Source: Balneolales bacterium (GTDB lineage Bacteria; Bacteroidota; Rhodothermia; Balneolales; Natronogracilivirgulaceae). Taken from it: DNA of 64,000 nt. The translations under genes were made by a program, and so were the position numbers. The notes beneath the pieces were generated by a model. That model saw only the letters and a list, made by a program, of their open reading frames with translations. It was not told the DNA's origin and made no database searches. Position 1 is the first letter of the stretch. Every line of letters begins with the position of its first letter. Location of the stretch: NCBI GenBank assembly GCA_007132495.1, contig SLOL01000033.1:1-64000 (forward strand), given 5' to 3'. Shown here one piece after another: positions 42,295 to 50,551 of this stretch.

Positions 42295-42323
42295 TTTGGT
42301 ACCCTGTTAAATTTATAAATTTG
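42295..42323 (+). promoter_or_regulatory. Candidate promoter of the trp operon
   Basis: TTTG at 42295-42298 is followed after 17 bases by TAAATTTG at 42316-42323, an exact match to the TTTG / TAnnTTTG promoter form known in Bacteroidota. Transcription would begin near 42330, about 35 bases before the trp leader peptide. Position, spacing and the attenuator downstream all support it. Confidence 0.65.
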
Positions 42324-42364
42324 TTTATTGCATGAAGCTGTTCATATGTGTAAATTATCATCTT

Positions 42365-42415
42365 ATGATACATGGTAACGCACATATCAACAACTGGTGG
42401 TGGCACATCTGCTGA
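42365..42415 (+). CDS. trpL: trp operon leader peptide
   Basis: A 16-codon open frame reads MIHGNAHINNWWWHIC and stops with TGA at 42413-42415. Three Trp codons in a row (42395-42403) sit near its end, just as in known trp leader peptides. The peptide itself has no expected function; ribosome stalling at the Trp codons would sense charged tRNA-Trp. The start ATG has no strong Shine-Dalgarno site, which is usual in this window. It lies between the promoter and the terminator before trpE. Confidence 0.85.
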   Translation: MIHGNAHINNWWWHIC

Positions 42416-42498
42416 AAGCGGAGTGATGCCGGTATGTGCCGTACCATTTGAAGAGTATACAACCCGCTTTCAGACAATCTGGAAGCGGGTTTTTTTTG
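42396..42498 (+). promoter_or_regulatory. trp transcription attenuator
   Basis: Three alternative pairings can be drawn. First, GGCACAT (42402-42408) with ATGTGCC (42434-42440). Second, the antiterminator GAAAGCGG (42414-42421), which overlaps the leader stop codon, with CCGCTTTC (42464-42471). Third, the terminator stem at 42461-42491. A ribosome stalled on the Trp codons leaves the antiterminator free; one that reaches the stop codon covers it, so the terminator forms. This is the logic of classical ribosome-mediated attenuation. Confidence 0.82.
42461..42498 (+). terminator. Attenuator terminator before trpE
   Basis: ACCCGCTTTCAG (42462-42473) pairs with CTGGAAGCGGGT (42479-42490) around the five-base loop ACAAT, with one G-U pair, and is followed by a run of eight Ts. 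The stem is long and GC-rich, so this is a strong factor-independent terminator placed 83 bases before the trpE start. Confidence 0.95.
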
Positions 42499-42580
42499 TG
42501 CGCCCGGCAGGGCGCATCCGCTTGGGTAACAGGGTCTATTCACCCGGAAGTGACGAAATCCTCCCGCAACAAAATTATGT

Positions 42581-44095
42581 ATGAAACGAAGTACCTTTAA
42601 GGAGCTGGCAGAAACCTATACGGCGATTCCGGTACATCGCGTATTAATGGCCGATACGGTGACACCTGTTTCGCTTTTTCTGAAAATCAGGAAGCATGGT
42701 GAGTTACCGTTTTTATTGGAATCCGTTGAGGGTGGAGAACATATGGCCAGATACTCTTTTCTGGGAAGGAATCCGTATCAGATCCTGACGTTTCAGGATG
42801 GCCGGGTGACCCTCACGGAAAAGCGGAAGCTTAATACAATGGGGACAAACGGTTCCGGTGACAAGTCGGCTACTCCTGAGAATGTGCGGGTACTGGAAGA
42901 GCCCTATTTTGATGCACTGAACCGATTGTGCATGACCTATAAGGAGCCACAAATACCGGATATGCCCCGGCTTACCGGTGGGGCTGTTGGATATTCGGCC
43001 TATGATACCGTCAGGCAGGTTGAAGAACTTCCCGACGTGCCGGATGATGACCTGCACCTTCCGGAAGCGATCTGGGCTTTTTATGATGAAATCTTTGCCT
43101 TTGACCATGTGAAACATCGTGTCATTCTGATTAAAACGGTATTCACGGATCCGGATGCCGGTCACGATCAGCAATATGATGAGGCGCTACACACCCTGGA
43201 TCGAATGGAAAGGGTCTTTTATGATCAGGTGACCGCCCCTGATGGTTACCGGAAAACCACCGAATTTCTTCAGAGTAACACAGAAAGGTCGGAGTTTCAT
43301 GCCCATGTTGAGAAGGCGAAGAAGTATGTACATGCCGGTGACATTTTTCAGGTGGTATTGTCCCAGCGTTTCCGCAGCTCATTCGAAGGTGACCGGTTCA
43401 TGCTTTACAGAGCTTTGCGGATGGTAAATCCCTCACCATATCTGTTTTATCTGGATTTCGGATCATTTGCCCTGGTAGGGTCTTCACCGGAAGTTCTGGT
43501 GCAGGTTCAGGAGGAAAAGGTGCGGCTGCTGCCTATAGCCGGAACCCGTCCCCGGGGAAGCACAACAGAGGAGGATGTTGCTTTTGAAAACGATCTTATG
43601 GCCGATCCGAAAGAGCTGGCGGAACACATCATGCTTGTGGATCTGGGACGGAATGACCTTTCGCGGGTTTGTGATCCCGATACCGTTACCCTGACCCGCG
43701 ACCGTGTTGTTGAGAGATACTCTCATGTTATGCATATCGTGTCAGATATCACCGGTACGCTGATGAAGGGGAAGTCGGCCGTAGATGCTTTGAAAAACTG
43801 TTTTCCGGCCGGTACGGTTTCGGGCGCACCCAAAGTGAGGGCGATGGAGATCATCGATGAGATGGAGCCCACGAAAAGAGGACCTTATGCCGGAGCAGTC
43901 GGGTATTTTGATTTTTCGGGAAATATGGATACCTGTATTGCCATCCGGACCATGGTAGTATCCGGCAATGATATCTATATACAGGCGGGAGCCGGCATTG
44001 TAGCCGACAGCAACCCCGACCACGAATATGATGAAACGGTTAACAAAGCCAGGGCGTTGGTTGAGGCGCTTGACATCGCCCTGAAACTGGATTAA
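42581..44095 (+). CDS. trpE: Anthranilate synthase component I
   Basis: TrpE makes anthranilate from chorismate with ammonia supplied by TrpG. The 504-residue product has the N-terminal regulatory segment LPFLLESVEGGEHMARYSFLG, in which the LLES motif binds tryptophan for feedback inhibition in relatives, and the chorismate-binding core with FQVVLSQRF, LLPIAGTRPRG, DLGRNDLSRVC and FPAGTVSGAPKVRAMEII. It is the first structural gene after the attenuator. A plain ATG start is used. Expression should rise when charged tRNA-Trp is low. Confidence 0.97.
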   Translation: MKRSTFKELAETYTAIPVHRVLMADTVTPVSLFLKIRKHGELPFLLESVEGGEHMARYSFLGRNPYQILTFQDGRVTLTEKRKLNTMGTNGSGDKSATPENVRVLEEPYFDALNRLCMTYKEPQIPDMPRLTGGAVGYSAYDTVRQVEELPDVPDDDLHLPEAIWAFYDEIFAFDHVKHRVILIKTVFTDPDAGHDQQYDEALHTLDRMERVFYDQVTAPDGYRKTTEFLQSNTERSEFHAHVEKAKKYVHAGDIFQVVLSQRFRSSFEGDRFMLYRALRMVNPSPYLFYLDFGSFALVGSSPEVLVQVQEEKVRLLPIAGTRPRGSTTEEDVAFENDLMADPKELAEHIMLVDLGRNDLSRVCDPDTVTLTRDRVVERYSHVMHIVSDITGTLMKGKSAVDALKNCFPAGTVSGAPKVRAMEIIDEMEPTKRGPYAGAVGYFDFSGNMDTCIAIRTMVVSGNDIYIQAGAGIVADSNPDHEYDETVNKARALVEALDIALKLD

Positions 44096-44132: not shown

Positions 44133-45134
44133 ATGAACAATCAGAAAAAAACCATTCTTTCCGGAATTCAACCTTCCGGCAGGCTGCATCTGGGAAATTA
44201 TTTTGGGGCTATACACCAGCATCTCGATTTTCAGCACAAAGGTGACGCGTTCTATTTCATTGCAAATTACCATTCACTAACCTCACTGCAGGATGGTGAG
44301 AAGTTGAGGCAATACACCTATGAAGTGGCCCTGGACTATCTGGCTCTGGGTATGGATCCGAATAAATGCACCTTTTTTGCACAAAGTGATGTGCCCCAGG
44401 TTCTGGAACTCACCTGGATTCTGGGTACGCTGACTCCCGTCAGTCTGATGGAAAAGGGAGTCTCTTATAAAGACAAGGTGGCTCAGGGGATGCAGCCCAA
44501 CATTGGTCTGTTCACCTATCCGGTCCTGCAGGCGGCCGATATTCTGATCTATCACTCCGATATTGTTCCGGTTGGAGCCGACCAGAAACAGAATATTGAG
44601 ATTTCGCGGGATCTGGCCGCCCGTTTCAACTACACCTACAAAGGGGATTATCTGCGAATTCCGGAGCCCCATATTGTAGAATCGGTGGCTACGGTTCCGG
44701 GTGTTGATGGCCGGAAAATGAGCAAATCGTATGATAATACCATTGATATTTTCGACAAAGGTAAGGCTTTGAAGAAGAAAGTGATGTCGATCAAAACAAA
44801 TTCCACCCCCATGGAGGATCCCAAAGATCCCGATGCCTGCAATGTGTTTGCACTGATCCGTCTGTTTGCTTCAAAAGACAAAGTTGAAGAGATAGCTGAT
44901 AAGTACAATAAAGGAGGGTATGGTTACGGCCATGCAAAAAAGGAGTTGCTGGCATTGATCCAGGATTATTTCGGAGAAGCCCATGAACGGAGACAGGAGC
45001 TCTCCGGAAATCCCGATATGGTTTGGGACATGCTGCGGGACGGGGGCAGAAAAGCCCGGGAAAGGGCAGAGTCGGTTATGGCCGATATTCGTGATGTTAC
45101 CGGCATTGTTAAAAATCATACAACCCGAATTTAA
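44133..45134 (+). CDS. trpS: Tryptophanyl-tRNA synthetase
   Basis: TrpS charges tRNA-Trp with tryptophan. The 333-residue product has the class I HIGH-like motif PSGRLHLGNYFGA (residues about 11-23), the Trp-pocket segment ending in SDVPQVLEL, GADQKQNIEI, and the KMSKS motif in GRKMSKSYDN near residue 195. It is inserted between trpE and trpG in the trp operon. Since the operon appears to be attenuated through charged tRNA-Trp, this enzyme would be raised when charging is low, closing a feedback loop. Length and motifs are normal. Confidence 0.97.
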   Translation: MNNQKKTILSGIQPSGRLHLGNYFGAIHQHLDFQHKGDAFYFIANYHSLTSLQDGEKLRQYTYEVALDYLALGMDPNKCTFFAQSDVPQVLELTWILGTLTPVSLMEKGVSYKDKVAQGMQPNIGLFTYPVLQAADILIYHSDIVPVGADQKQNIEISRDLAARFNYTYKGDYLRIPEPHIVESVATVPGVDGRKMSKSYDNTIDIFDKGKALKKKVMSIKTNSTPMEDPKDPDACNVFALIRLFASKDKVEEIADKYNKGGYGYGHAKKELLALIQDYFGEAHERRQELSGNPDMVWDMLRDGGRKARERAESVMADIRDVTGIVKNHTTRI

Positions 45135-45181: not shown

Positions 45182-45751
45182 ATGGTACTGATCATTGACA
45201 ACTACGACTCCTTCACATATAACCTGGTCCATCTGGTTGCCAGGCACAGTGATGAGTACACGGTTATACGTAATGACAAAATTACCGTGCAGGAGATCCG
45301 TCGGCTTGATCCGGACAGGATTATGATCTCGCCGGGACCGGGTCGACCTGAAAACGCCGGTATTACCGAGGAGGTTATACGGGAACTGGGTGCCGACATA
45401 CCTATTCTTGGAGTGTGTCTGGGACATCAGGCAATAGGGCATGTACATGGTGCCACCGTTATATCCGCACCTTCATTAATGCACGGAAAGACGTCTTTGA
45501 TTCTGCACGACTCCTCATCTCTGTATAAAGGAGTACCACAGTCATTTACAGCAACCCGCTATCATTCGCTGGTGCTGGATGAAGAGACAATTCCGGATGA
45601 TTTCACCATTACCTCCCGGTCGCAGGACGGGATTGTGATGGGCATCCGGCATAAAAGCTTACCGCTGGAAGGTATTCAGTTTCACCCGGAAAGCATTCTG
45701 ACGGTTGAAGGTCCGCGAATCATTGAAAACTGGATGAATCAACAATTGTAA
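45182..45751 (+). CDS. trpG: Anthranilate synthase component II (glutamine amidotransferase)
   Basis: TrpG releases ammonia from glutamine and passes it to TrpE. The 189-residue product is a class I glutamine amidotransferase with IDNYDSFTYNLVH at the start, the oxyanion segment MISPGPGRPENAG, the nucleophile Cys in GVCLGHQAIG and the His/Glu pair in GIQFHPESIL. It is a separate gene, not fused to trpE or trpD. In some bacteria such a protein also serves p-aminobenzoate synthesis; the operon position supports the tryptophan role. Confidence 0.96.
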   Translation: MVLIIDNYDSFTYNLVHLVARHSDEYTVIRNDKITVQEIRRLDPDRIMISPGPGRPENAGITEEVIRELGADIPILGVCLGHQAIGHVHGATVISAPSLMHGKTSLILHDSSSLYKGVPQSFTATRYHSLVLDEETIPDDFTITSRSQDGIVMGIRHKSLPLEGIQFHPESILTVEGPRIIENWMNQQL

Positions 45752-45778
45752 ATAGACAACAGCTGGGATACTGACACT

Positions 45779-46819
45779 ATGAATGATTTTTTACAAATAC
45801 TGGATCTGGTAAACCGGCGCAGGGATCTGACATTGGAACAGGCGCGGTACGCCATGCAGGAGATCATCGCCGGCAAAGTTAATTTGTCCCGTACAGCTGC
45901 GTTTTTATTCGGGATGAGCTGCAAGAATGAGACGGTTGAAGAGTTGACTGCTCTTGTGGAAGTGATGCGTGAAGCTTCCATTAAAATGGAGGTCGAAACC
46001 GATCATGCCGTTGATTTGTGCGGTACGGGCGGGGACAAATCCAACACTTTCAATATTTCGACAGCATCCATGTTCGTTGTGGCTGGTGCAGAGGTGCCTG
46101 TGCTGAAACATGGCAACTCCGGAGTTTCCAGTAAAAGCGGCAGTTTTGATGTTTTAAAAAGTTTGGGTGTGCAGCCGGATCTGGAGAAAGAGCATGCCGA
46201 AACCTGTTTCCGGGAGACCGGGATGGCCTTTATGTACGCTCCGCGTTTCCATCCCGCCATGGCCTACGTGATGCCGGCCCGCAAGGAGCTGGGAATCAGG
46301 ACGTTTTTCAATATCATGGGTCCCATGCTGAATCCGGCAGGTGTGAAACGGCAGGTAATTGGTGCCTACAATAGTGAGACCGCACGAAACATCATTCAAA
46401 TACTTGCCAATCTCGGGACGGATTTTGCATATACGGTACATGCAGACGACGGCCTTGATGAATTATCCACGACAACATATACCCGTGTTTTCCAGTTAAT
46501 GGATGGTGACATATCGGAGAATGACCGGTTTGATCCGAGACATCTGGGGCTTTCCCTGACCAGTCCGGAGCTGCTGAAAGGAGGCGATCCTGATGTCAAC
46601 GCCGAAATCATACGGGGTGTTCTGGATGATCATGCCACCGAGGCACAGCGTGAAATTGTTCTGCTGAACGCAACGTTTGCAATACATGCATCGGGTTTGT
46701 ATACCGATATCCAGGAGGCTTATCTGGAGGCACAGGAGAGCCTCGAATCGGGTGCCGCCCGCAGTGCGCTGGAACAATTTGCAGAATGTACCTCGGATCT
46801 GAAATCGTCCGGAGTTTGA
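45779..46819 (+). CDS. trpD: Anthranilate phosphoribosyltransferase
   Basis: TrpD joins anthranilate to phosphoribosyl pyrophosphate. The 346-residue product has the PRPP/metal motifs DLCGTGGDKSNTFNIST (residues about 80-96) and KHGNSGVSSKSGSFDVLKSLG split over about 110-130, the FMYAPRFHPAMAYVMPARKELGIRTFFNIMGPMLNPA region (about 155-190), and HADDGLDELS near residue 222. It lies 27 bases after trpG and is a complete, normal-length enzyme. Confidence 0.97.
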   Translation: MNDFLQILDLVNRRRDLTLEQARYAMQEIIAGKVNLSRTAAFLFGMSCKNETVEELTALVEVMREASIKMEVETDHAVDLCGTGGDKSNTFNISTASMFVVAGAEVPVLKHGNSGVSSKSGSFDVLKSLGVQPDLEKEHAETCFRETGMAFMYAPRFHPAMAYVMPARKELGIRTFFNIMGPMLNPAGVKRQVIGAYNSETARNIIQILANLGTDFAYTVHADDGLDELSTTTYTRVFQLMDGDISENDRFDPRHLGLSLTSPELLKGGDPDVNAEIIRGVLDDHATEAQREIVLLNATFAIHASGLYTDIQEAYLEAQESLESGAARSALEQFAECTSDLKSSGV

Positions 46820-46882
46820 GACGAAGGTATGGGTACAGTCATGTCGGCATAACATGGAAATCAAACATGAGGTAACTTACCG

Positions 46883-47689
46883 GTGAGCAGTATACTTGAA
46901 AAGATTGTAGAACAGACCCGCGAGGATATTTCCAGAAAACGCAGGAAGATTGCAATTGATGATTTTAATGGCTTCGGGGAATATCACCGAACGAGAAGGG
47001 ATTTTGCCAAAGCCCTGGTCTCCCGTAACGGAATCTCGGTCATTGCAGAGCTGAAAAAGGCTTCTCCGTCCAAAGGTGTGATCAGGGACTCTTTCAATCC
47101 GGGGGGAATTGCACAGTCCTATGAAAATAATGGGGCGGCAGCATTGTCGGTGCTGACCGACGAGCCCTTTTTCAAGGGTGCACTTACGTATCTTCAGGAA
47201 GCATCCTCCATCGTCTCAATCCCGGTATTGCGAAAGGATTTTATCATCGACTTCTACCAGATTGAAGAGGCTCGGGCCTGGGGCGCTGATGCCGTGCTTC
47301 TTATCGTAAAAATTACCGATGGCCAGCAATTATATGAACTGCATGATGCAGCAAAAGAAGCCGGACTGCAGACATTGGTAGAATGTTACGACGAGGATGA
47401 CTGGGAGCGTCTTGATTTCAATCGATTTTCCATTGTCGGGGTGAATAATCGGAACCTCGACACTTTTGAAACGGATCTGCACCGGGGAGTTCATTTACTC
47501 CGGCAGGCTCCCAAAGGGGTCATCAGGGTTTCGGAAAGCGGACTGAATCAACCCGAAGATCTGGTCATGCTTTCGGAAAACGGCATCCCGTGCTGCCTGA
47601 TCGGTGAGCATCTTATGCGAGCCGAAGACCCCGGAGCGGAACTGGCTCGTTTAATAGCCCCTTTTTCATCAGATGGCAACCATTCTTGA
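46883..47689 (+). CDS. trpC: Indole-3-glycerol-phosphate synthase
   Basis: TrpC closes the indole ring to make indole-3-glycerol phosphate. The 268-residue TIM barrel has the family signature VIAELKKASPSKGVI (residues about 53-67, with the catalytic lysine and glutamate), VLTDEPFFKGALTYL, VLRKDFIIDFYQIEEARAWGADAVLLI split over about 115-142, and NNRNLDTFETDL plus SESGL. Translation starts at GTG, because no in-frame ATG lies near the N-terminus. TrpC and TrpF are separate proteins here. A 146-base gap with two direct repeats separates this gene from the trpF start. Confidence 0.96.
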   Translation: MSSILEKIVEQTREDISRKRRKIAIDDFNGFGEYHRTRRDFAKALVSRNGISVIAELKKASPSKGVIRDSFNPGGIAQSYENNGAAALSVLTDEPFFKGALTYLQEASSIVSIPVLRKDFIIDFYQIEEARAWGADAVLLIVKITDGQQLYELHDAAKEAGLQTLVECYDEDDWERLDFNRFSIVGVNNRNLDTFETDLHRGVHLLRQAPKGVIRVSESGLNQPEDLVMLSENGIPCCLIGEHLMRAEDPGAELARLIAPFSSDGNHS

Positions 47690-47697
47690 TGCTAAAA

Positions 47698-47740
47698 TCA
47701 CATGTATAAAAAATTTTGTTTCACAATGTCACATGTATAA
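47698..47740 (+). repeat. 12-bp direct repeats between trpC and trpF
   Basis: TCACATGTATAA occurs at 47698-47709 and again at 47729-47740, exactly 31 bases apart, about three helical turns. Each copy contains the palindrome ACATGT. Same-face spacing in the only sizable gap of the operon suggests binding sites or an internal promoter, but no factor is known. Confidence 0.6.
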
Positions 47741-47835
47741 TACCATGACCGAATTTAATTATGCGCCTGTGTGTCCGGCGTCAGCCCGGTCATGGGTGTT
47801 TCATTATTGATAACGCAGCAGGTAATCAGGAAAAC

Positions 47836-48489
47836 ATGACACAACAACAAACGCGATTGAAAATATGTGGAATCACCAACCTGGAAGACGCCCGTTATGC
47901 GGCAGGAGCCATGGTTGACTATCTTGGTTTCATCTTTTATCCCGGCAGCTCCAGATATGTGCGGCCGCGTGAAGCCGCTGAGATAATTGGGTGGATTGAA
48001 GGGATTGAGAAAGTGGGGGTATTTGTCAATCAATCCTCTGATGAGATCAACCGGGTTATCGAACGTACCGGAATCGACCTGGTGCAGCTTCATGGTGATG
48101 AGGAGCCCGGAGATGCCGTTAAGATCGCCAAACCCGTAATAAAGTCATTCCGGATTTCAGAAAATGAAGATACCGGACAACTGATCGAAAAAATCAGGCT
48201 ATGGGATAGCGTCGCGGCTTACTTTCTTTTTGACGCCTTTGATGAAAACAGGTATGGAGGAACCGGCAAATCATGGGACTGGTCGATTCTTTCAGATATC
48301 CCGTCTGACGCACCGGTATTTCTGGCAGGTGGAATTTCCAGTAAGAATGTCGAACAGGCCGTATCCCGGGTCCGTCCATTTGCCGTTGACCTTTCAAGCA
48401 GCATCGAAAGTGAACCCGGAATCAAGGACTTCGACAAGATGCAGGTCTTTCTGGATCGCTGGAACGAAGTTCTGGAAATCAATTCGTAG
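47836..48489 (+). CDS. trpF: Phosphoribosylanthranilate isomerase
   Basis: TrpF isomerises phosphoribosylanthranilate for TrpC. The 217-residue barrel has the start [16 protein letters not shown] with the catalytic Cys, [33 protein letters not shown], the [20 protein letters not shown] segment and [16 protein letters not shown] chose the ATG at 47836 because it is preceded by AGGA and homologs start just before KICGI. An ATG at 47761 in the same frame would add 25 residues (MRLCVRRQPG...) that do not fit the family. Confidence 0.95.
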
Positions 48490-48515
48490 TTAATTGTAAT
48501 TATCATTCTCATTCA

Positions 48516-49730
48516 ATGAACTCCATGACAACGCAACAAAAAAAGGCGTCACTTCCCGATCAAAGGGGTTTTTTCGGTCAATATGGCGGGCGGTTTGTTC
48601 CGGAAATACTTGTTCCGGCTCTTGATAACCTGAATAACGCCTTTGAAAAAGCCCTGCAAGATGAAAATTTCCGACAGGAGTACGACACCCTGTTAAAAGA
48701 ATATGTAGGCAGAGAGACTCCACTTACCTATGCAGGTCGGCTGACTGCCCACTACGGCAAAGCGAAAATCTATCTGAAAAGGGAGGATCTTTGTCACACC
48801 GGCGCCCATAAAATCAATAATGCCATCGGGCAGGTGCTTTTGGCCCGAAAGATGGGCAAAACCCGTATTATAGCCGAAACCGGCGCGGGTCAGCACGGTG
48901 TTGCAACCGCCACGGTCTGTGCTTATTTCGGGATGAAATGCATTATATATATGGGGGCTGAAGATATAAGGCGCCAAAAACTTAATGTCGATCGTATCAG
49001 CCTCCTCGGTGCTGAAGTACGGCCGGTGGAATCCGGTGCAAAGACCCTTAGCAACGCCATAAACGAGGCTATTCGGGATTGGGTCAGCAATGTGGAAGAC
49101 ACCTTTTACATTATCGGATCCGCCGTGGGACCGCATCCTTATCCACGGATGGTCAGGGAGTTTCAGTCGGTAATAGGTAAGGAGACCATTGATCAGTGCC
49201 TGGAGGCCGAAGCTTGTCTTCCGCATCATGTTGTGGCATGTGTCGGCGGCGGATCCAATGCCATCGGAATGTTTTCTCCCATGCTGGAATTTGAGGATGT
49301 TAAACTGTACGGCGTCGAAGCGGCCGGAGAAGGGATCCAAACCAGTCGCCATGCAGCTACACTTACAGGGGGAGATCCCGGTGTGCTGCATGGCTCGTTG
49401 AGCTATCTGCTGCAGACAGCGCACGGCCAGATCGCGGAAGCTCATTCGATAAGTGCCGGACTCGATTACCCGGGAGTCGGCCCCGAACACTCCTGGCTGC
49501 GGGATACCGGGCGGGTGGCCTATTCTTCGATTACCGACCAGGAGGCCATAGACGGGGTCAAACTGCTGTCAGCATTGGAGGGTATTATTCCGGCCCTGGA
49601 GACGGCACACACGATCGCTTATCTCGAAAAACTGATGCCTGAAACCGACACCGATGAAATTGTAGTCGTCAACTGTTCCGGGCGGGGAGACAAGGACATG
49701 GAGACCATTTCTAAATATATGCCGTCATGA
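48516..49730 (+). CDS. trpB: Tryptophan synthase beta chain
   Basis: TrpB condenses indole with serine using pyridoxal phosphate. The 404-residue product has the N-terminal [11 protein letters not shown], the PLP lysine in [17 protein letters not shown] (residues about 88-104), [15 protein letters not shown], the phosphate-binding [12 protein letters not shown] and the C-terminal [12 protein letters not shown]. Its last four bases overlap the trpA start, so the two subunits of the synthase are made in coupled amounts. The N-terminus may start at either of two close ATGs (48516 or 48525). Confidence 0.97.
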
Positions 49731-50551
49731 GCAAAAACAACCGTATTCAGCAGCTTTTTCAACAACGCGATCCGGATCACAAGATCATGAGCCTGTTTAT
49801 AACGGCAGGGTATCCGGACCCGGCTCAAACCGTTGCATTGATCCGGGAGCTCGAATCATCGGGCGCCGATATGATTGAACTTGGAATGCCGTTCAGTGAC
49901 CCCCTCGCTGACGGTCCGACCATACAGAATGCCAGCAAGGTAGCCCTGGAACAGGGAGTACACATGGATAGTATCTTCGGGATGGTCCGGGAATTGCGCC
50001 GATATTCAGAAATTCCGATTGTACTGATGGGGTACATCAATCCGGTTTTGCGGTATGGTCTTGAAAAATTCTTTCAGACCGCTTCTGAGTCAGGGGTGGA
50101 TGGGGTCATTATACCCGATGTGCCGCCCGGAGAGCTTCCCGAGCTTACCGGATTGACCGATACCTGCGGGATCGATCCGATCTACCTGGTGGCACCCAAC
50201 ACTTCTGATGAGCGAATGAAAACCATTGACGAATACAGCAGGGGTTTTATTTACTGCGTCTCTGTTACCGGTGTAACCGGTGCCAGGGACGGAGAGGAAG
50301 TTGACCGATCTGTACGAAAATTCATCCAACGGGTGCGCACCAATGTTACGAAAAATCCGGTTCTGATCGGTTTCGGTATTCGATCCCATAAAGATGCCAT
50401 GAACATATCAAAAGAAGTGGAGGGTTTTATTGTCGGAAGCGCCCTCATTGATGTCATTGATAAGTACTACCCGCATGAGGACTGGATCGCTCGGGCCGGC
50501 TCCTTTGTGAAGGCATTGCGATCCGGAGAAAAGACGGAAATAGCTGAATAA
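49727..50551 (+). CDS. trpA: Tryptophan synthase alpha chain
   Basis: TrpA cleaves indole-3-glycerol phosphate and channels indole to TrpB. The 274-residue product has the catalytic glutamate and aspartate segments [20 protein letters not shown] (residues about 46-65) and [34 protein letters not shown] and [10 protein letters not shown]. It is the last trp gene. A 95-base gap with a T-run but no clear hairpin separates it from the DUF4837 lipoprotein gene, which may or may not share the transcript. Confidence 0.96.

Follow-up and report, generated by a model that had tools for sequence, protein, structure and literature searches.

In the trp attenuator of Escherichia coli, a leader peptide with two Trp codons precedes trpE, and the leader RNA can form a protector (1:2), an antiterminator (2:3) or a terminator (3:4). 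A leaderless counterpart has been described in Sinorhizobium meliloti, where the 5' end of the trpL (rnTrpL) transcript coincides with the ATG of the leader and transcription start is not repressed; rnTrpL and peTrpL also have roles in trans (PMC7298713). The classical leaders of Corynebacterium and Streptomyces carry two or three UGG codons, and trpS2 of S. avermitilis lies under a candidate attenuator (PMC1262725). Before its own his leaders in Firmicutes, a 2010 survey was aware of no demonstrated case beyond Proteobacteria and Actinobacteria (PMC2965389), and a 2013 survey suggested a gamma-proteobacterial origin with few transfers for the amino-acid attenuator motifs then in Rfam (PMC3766115). 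For Balneolota, Rhodothermota or Bacteroidota, no report of a trp attenuator was found in the searchable literature, outside which part of the subscription work lies; the first-pass annotation of the DNA studied here had likewise been aware of no described example in this lineage.

We analysed a 64,000-nt stretch of a Balneolales genome (contig SLOL01000033.1; hereafter the window), in which the region 42328-42581 reads, 5' to 3', as a promoter, a 16-codon ORF, a set of alternative stems, a terminator and then trpE. The closest relatives with names are metagenome assemblies of Balneolales and Balneolaceae bacterium ANBcel3, which places the window in Balneolales; the wider class is probably Rhodothermia of GTDB. 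Profile matches in the window give the operon order trpE-trpS-trpG-trpD-trpC-trpF-trpB-trpA, and we are highly confident that a classical ribosome-mediated transcription attenuator controls all eight genes. Its parts and the genes behind it are the following.

42328..42356, + strand: promoter TTGCAT-N17-TAAATT (TTGCAT at 42328-42333, TAAATT at 42351-42356), conserved; predicted transcription start at 42363-42365
42365..42415, + strand: leader peptide ORF, MIHGNAHINNWWWHIC followed by the stop, 16 codons, on a predicted leaderless mRNA
42380..42386, + strand: 5' arm of the clamp helix, GCACATA, leader codons 6-8; pairs with 42433-42439, with compensatory changes at 3 pairs
42395..42403, + strand: three consecutive Trp codons, the predicted stalling site, read from the sequence and from invariant columns in alignment A1
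42408..42422, + strand: protector hairpin TCTGCT-GAA-AGCGGA, which conceals region 2 in the absence of a ribosome, according to the folds
42412..42421, + strand: region 2, the antiterminator 5' arm CTGAAAGCGG, overlapping the leader stop; 10-bp pairing with region 3
42433..42439, + strand: 3' arm of the clamp helix, TATGTGC, partner of 42380-42386
42461..42497, + strand: intrinsic terminator (regions 3:4), with a 14-pair stem at 42461-42491 and T8 at 42490-42497
42464..42473, + strand: region 3, CCGCTTTCAG, common to antiterminator and terminator, from pairing and covariation
42581..44095, + strand: trpE, first structural gene (TIGR00564, 551 bits against a cut-off of 517.7)
44133..45134, + strand: trpS, second gene of the operon (TIGR00233, above cut-off)
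45182..50551, + strand: trpG, trpD, trpC, trpF, trpB and trpA (NCBIfam matches, several above cut-off)

The locus thus shares with E. coli its Trp-codon leader, the three pairings and the position before trpE, and differs in having three Trp codons, no predicted 5' UTR, trpS within the operon and no detected TrpR. With S. meliloti trpL it shares consecutive Trp codons and a leaderless mRNA, the leaderless start being a prediction in the window; the S. meliloti attenuator, in contrast, controls only trpE(G) and belongs to another phylum. A related rhizobial leader, MNIVSKNIANWWWSSFLRP of Agrobacterium, has three Trp codons, as in the window. Actinobacteria use separate attenuators for the trp operon and the synthetase gene, whereas here a single one stands before trpE-trpS and hence before the sole synthetase gene detected. 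The kind of attenuator is a known one; the leaderless start and the placement of trpS are features of the lineage whose components have precedents (PMC7298713, PMC1262725). Being conserved and covarying, the attenuator would extend the reported range of leader-peptide attenuation of amino acid operons, mainly Proteobacteria and Actinobacteria, to an order of another phylum. The Rfam Trp_leader model (RF00513), which the first-pass annotation had named as a check, gave a weak match that spans the whole model (1-100) but scores 23.9 bits, below the gathering threshold of 41, and this model misses leaders of the Balneolales type.

The 16-codon leader with three Trp codons, reported earlier at 42365-42415, is present, and Trp-run leaders recur in relatives. 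The search for TrpE covered 20 genomes at family level, 129 in the order and 245 in the class, and the upstream regions were retrieved. Among 110 usable Balneolales regions, 97 hold a leader ORF whose Trp codons stand two to four in a row ahead of a terminator, and three more have a Trp-X-Trp leader, which brings the total to 100 (including a doubtful one, L124, with a divergent TrpE), so that the conserved Trp-rich leader to be looked for in related genomes was indeed found. The Trp codons of these leaders are conserved and the remaining peptide residues are not; the residue after the Trp run can be P, H, S, L, Y, C or N, and WWWP occurs in many relatives. Three loci of the window's family (L003, L009 and L014) have four Trp codons in a row instead of three, an in-frame TGG expansion.

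The ten regions without a Trp leader belong to nine genomes of one genus (g28, which includes Balneola sp. SP292 and UBA2956; loci L111, L113-L116, L119 and L121-L123) and to G122 (L049), and in each of them trpE-trpS and a terminator are kept. In one leader-less genome, G102, a TrpR gene scores above the Pfam cut-off, possibly a regulator swap in which TrpR took the place of the leader. Beyond the order, 13 of 19 loci from elsewhere in the class have at least two adjacent Trp codons; so do 2 of 62 regions upstream of trpE in other phyla. One of the latter two, L197 on a Syntrophaceae contig (UBA4767), carries the trpE leader ORF MMQTALLNNWWWQIQEEGFVRC and looks like a separate, true trp attenuator.

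The sequence marks of a classical attenuator are found together at the locus: an ORF with a run of Trp codons, a terminator between this ORF and trpE, and an antiterminator that excludes the terminator, region 3 being used by both and both helices covarying in another family of the order. The strong terminator with its T-run before trpE, noted at first reading, was recovered in full, and the antiterminator arm given there, GAAAGCGG, does overlap the TGA stop at 42413-42415, with the full pairing extending to 10 bp. This 10-bp antiterminator was matched in 0 of 200 shuffles of the intervening sequence (p = 0.005). The leader fold has a z of -4.4 against dinucleotide shuffles, 0 of 200 being as stable. 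A 5' stem seen in a fold begun upstream of the predicted transcript start was discarded, as it uses sequence that is probably untranscribed, and the leader was refolded from 42364.

Regions 2 and 3 are nearly invariant in the window's family and hence uninformative there, so the covariation of 2:3 comes from the other large family of the order (f2), where the arm pairs differ from those of the window (GGCAGTGG/CCACTGC, AACAGCGGG/CCCGCTGTT and CGGCAGTGG/CCGCTGCCG). In f2, 87.7% of cells in the antiterminator are paired and 17 are altered on both sides, against 5.8 in shuffles, and the terminator (3:4) has 89 double-changed cells against 32; in the window's family the clamp helix, which encloses the Trp codons and was recovered independently by RNAalifold, covaries at 3 pairs (5 cells against 0.6), all of these being pair counts that the relatedness of the sequences inflates, so that independent events are overstated. 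The covarying stems that the first reading had called for in relatives are accordingly the antiterminator and terminator in f2 and the clamp in the window's family. The protector hairpin is invariant in the 14 loci of that family and therefore carries no covariation information.

A covariance model was built from these 14 loci, the window sequence among them, and the window scores 146.5 bits with this partly self-trained model. The model detects the element in the other families of the order, mostly at E < 1e-3. It gave no significant match in the other orders of the class (best E 0.02), where per-sequence antiterminator tests are weak as well, and nothing better than E 0.04 on a set of other-phylum loci and loci of the leader-less genus. 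These data bear on the reading in which regulation has decayed in the lineage and the leader is a relic, leaving a constitutive partial terminator. Loss does occur, as the leader-less genus and G122 illustrate, and in the window a group II intron fragment lies just past the T-run; against this, every element of the window is intact and matches its relatives, down to the score just given, and we regard decay at this locus as very unlikely.

With a working attenuator as the preferred reading, its promoter becomes a question of where the leader RNA begins. A promoter placed at 42295-42323 by the first-pass annotation was dropped: nothing corresponding to it can be seen in the sequences of the relatives, and the 5' UTR of about 40 nt that it implies is probably absent. 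The conserved element is instead that at 42328-42356, whose few consensus matches keep it off the list of a generic sigma-70 scan. The leader ATG lies 8 nt past its TAAATT. Across loci, 101 of 112 show the pattern TTGnnn-N17-TAnnTT with an in-frame start codon 5-10 nt further on, where shuffles lead one to expect 0.21, in a comparison whose anchoring is wrong for L110 and for some loci of other orders. A similar promoter-to-start arrangement is found at 1 of 76 window ORFs of at least 150 codons. The composite of promoter, start and three TGG codons has a single match in the whole 3.37-Mb genome, the trp leader itself, and is found once each in 35 of 396 genomes of the phylum, of which 34 belong to the window's class. 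Given the usual distance from a -10 element to the start, the 5' end of the transcript would fall within about 3 nt of the ATG. Because the promoter-like element so consistently precedes the ATG at this distance, we infer a leaderless leader mRNA, with the ATG predicted about 2-3 nt from the transcript start; the fixed spacing predicts leaderless initiation on an attenuator.

We then considered how such an RNA would switch. Folding with a masked ribosome, before region 4 is made, leaves region 2 hidden when no ribosome is present. A masked stall at Trp codon 1 or 2 gives the 10-bp antiterminator and one at codon 3 gives 7 bp, and a masked ribosome at the leader stop gives no antiterminator. 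Once region 4 is included, the minimum-energy fold is always the terminator, even with a stalled ribosome, from which we infer that the switch must be kinetic, 2:3 forming before region 4. We envision that transcription would start on the leader ATG or no more than about 3 nt from it, and that a ribosome would load on the 5' end of the transcript. When charged tRNA-Trp is plentiful, the ribosome would reach the stop and cover region 2, region 3 would pair with region 4, and transcription would be terminated. When it is scarce, the ribosome would halt at the run of three TGG codons, where it would cover the protector arms and leave region 2 free, and the 2:3 pairing, preceding the synthesis of region 4, would allow the operon to be transcribed. 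If translation is absent, the protector structure would conceal region 2, again with termination as the predicted outcome. The switch logic first proposed, in which the overlap of antiterminator and stop codon decides the outcome, fits the masked-ribosome folding; as a general rule it does not hold, since the overlap is largely specific to the window's family and in most of f2 the antiterminator arm lies 15-20 nt short of the stop codon, still within the ORF. Judged by these sequences, the stop-codon overlap is one solution among several within the order.

T-box, TRAP and TrpR are known routes of trp gene control. A different sensing class of this sort (a T-box, a TRAP-type leader or TrpR) could in principle govern the terminator, with the small ORF incidental, as an intrinsic terminator does close the leader and TrpR scores above cut-off in 7 of 245 class genomes, one of which belongs to the order. 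However, the T-box covariance model has no match in the window, TRAP (PF02081) was found in 0 of 245 class genomes by a search that detects the B. subtilis control, TrpR was not detected in this genome (93% complete), and the Trp codons of the ORF are kept where its other residues vary; we consider this alternative extremely improbable. The notion that the leader is an arrest peptide sensing free tryptophan in the manner of TnaC, rather than codon starvation, has the Trp-rich peptide and the frequent WWWP of relatives to recommend it and is hardly credible all the same, since the residues flanking the Trp run vary freely where an arrest peptide requires fixed ones, and three adjacent cognate codons with a covarying antiterminator are the signature of attenuation.

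For the attenuator, what remains to be considered is the reach of its control, which is set by the second gene of the operon. In Balneolales, trpS directly follows trpE in 111 of 113 loci, the contigs of the other two ending first; elsewhere in the class 18 of 20 loci share the arrangement, and in other phyla 0 of 64 do. A second TrpRS was not detected in the window's genome, where the sole other match is weak (37% identity over about 100 residues) and is probably a tyrosyl-tRNA synthetase. Nearly all genomes of the class have one trpS, and five have two matches, partial in at least some cases. Since trpS is the sole detected copy and lies in the operon, the attenuator is predicted to control the only TrpRS of the cell, and the switch should sense a failure of charging as well as a shortage of tryptophan. 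Charging of the tRNA is hence predicted, from gene order, to feed back on its own enzyme, the synthetase responding to its own charging level. We lean, if only slightly, towards a class-wide version of this arrangement, in which a leaderless trp attenuator governs the only TrpRS together with tryptophan synthesis, and the charging level of tRNA-Trp would set, through one switch, the supply of the amino acid and that of the enzyme.

A separate observation concerns the sequence GTGCGCCCGGCAGGGCGCATCCGCTTGGG, found at 42498-42526 of the window directly after the T-run of the trp terminator. About ten partial copies are present in the genome, among them G000:C191:169, C104:4410, C147:3162, C186:34300, C210:43 and C45:35104. 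Each of the seven copies examined lies just 3' of a hairpin resembling an intrinsic terminator, and the copies diverge past about 30 nt. The sequence is identical to that with which a group II intron on a P. putida plasmid (NZ_MN310372) begins at its 5' end, with Rfam RF02001 85 nt further on; a plasmid blastn match next to the trp terminator is accordingly not the attenuator and looks instead like the terminus of such an intron. A reverse transcriptase (PF00078) was sought in this genome and not found, so that the copies have the look of 5' ends orphaned from a terminator-targeting (class C) group II intron.
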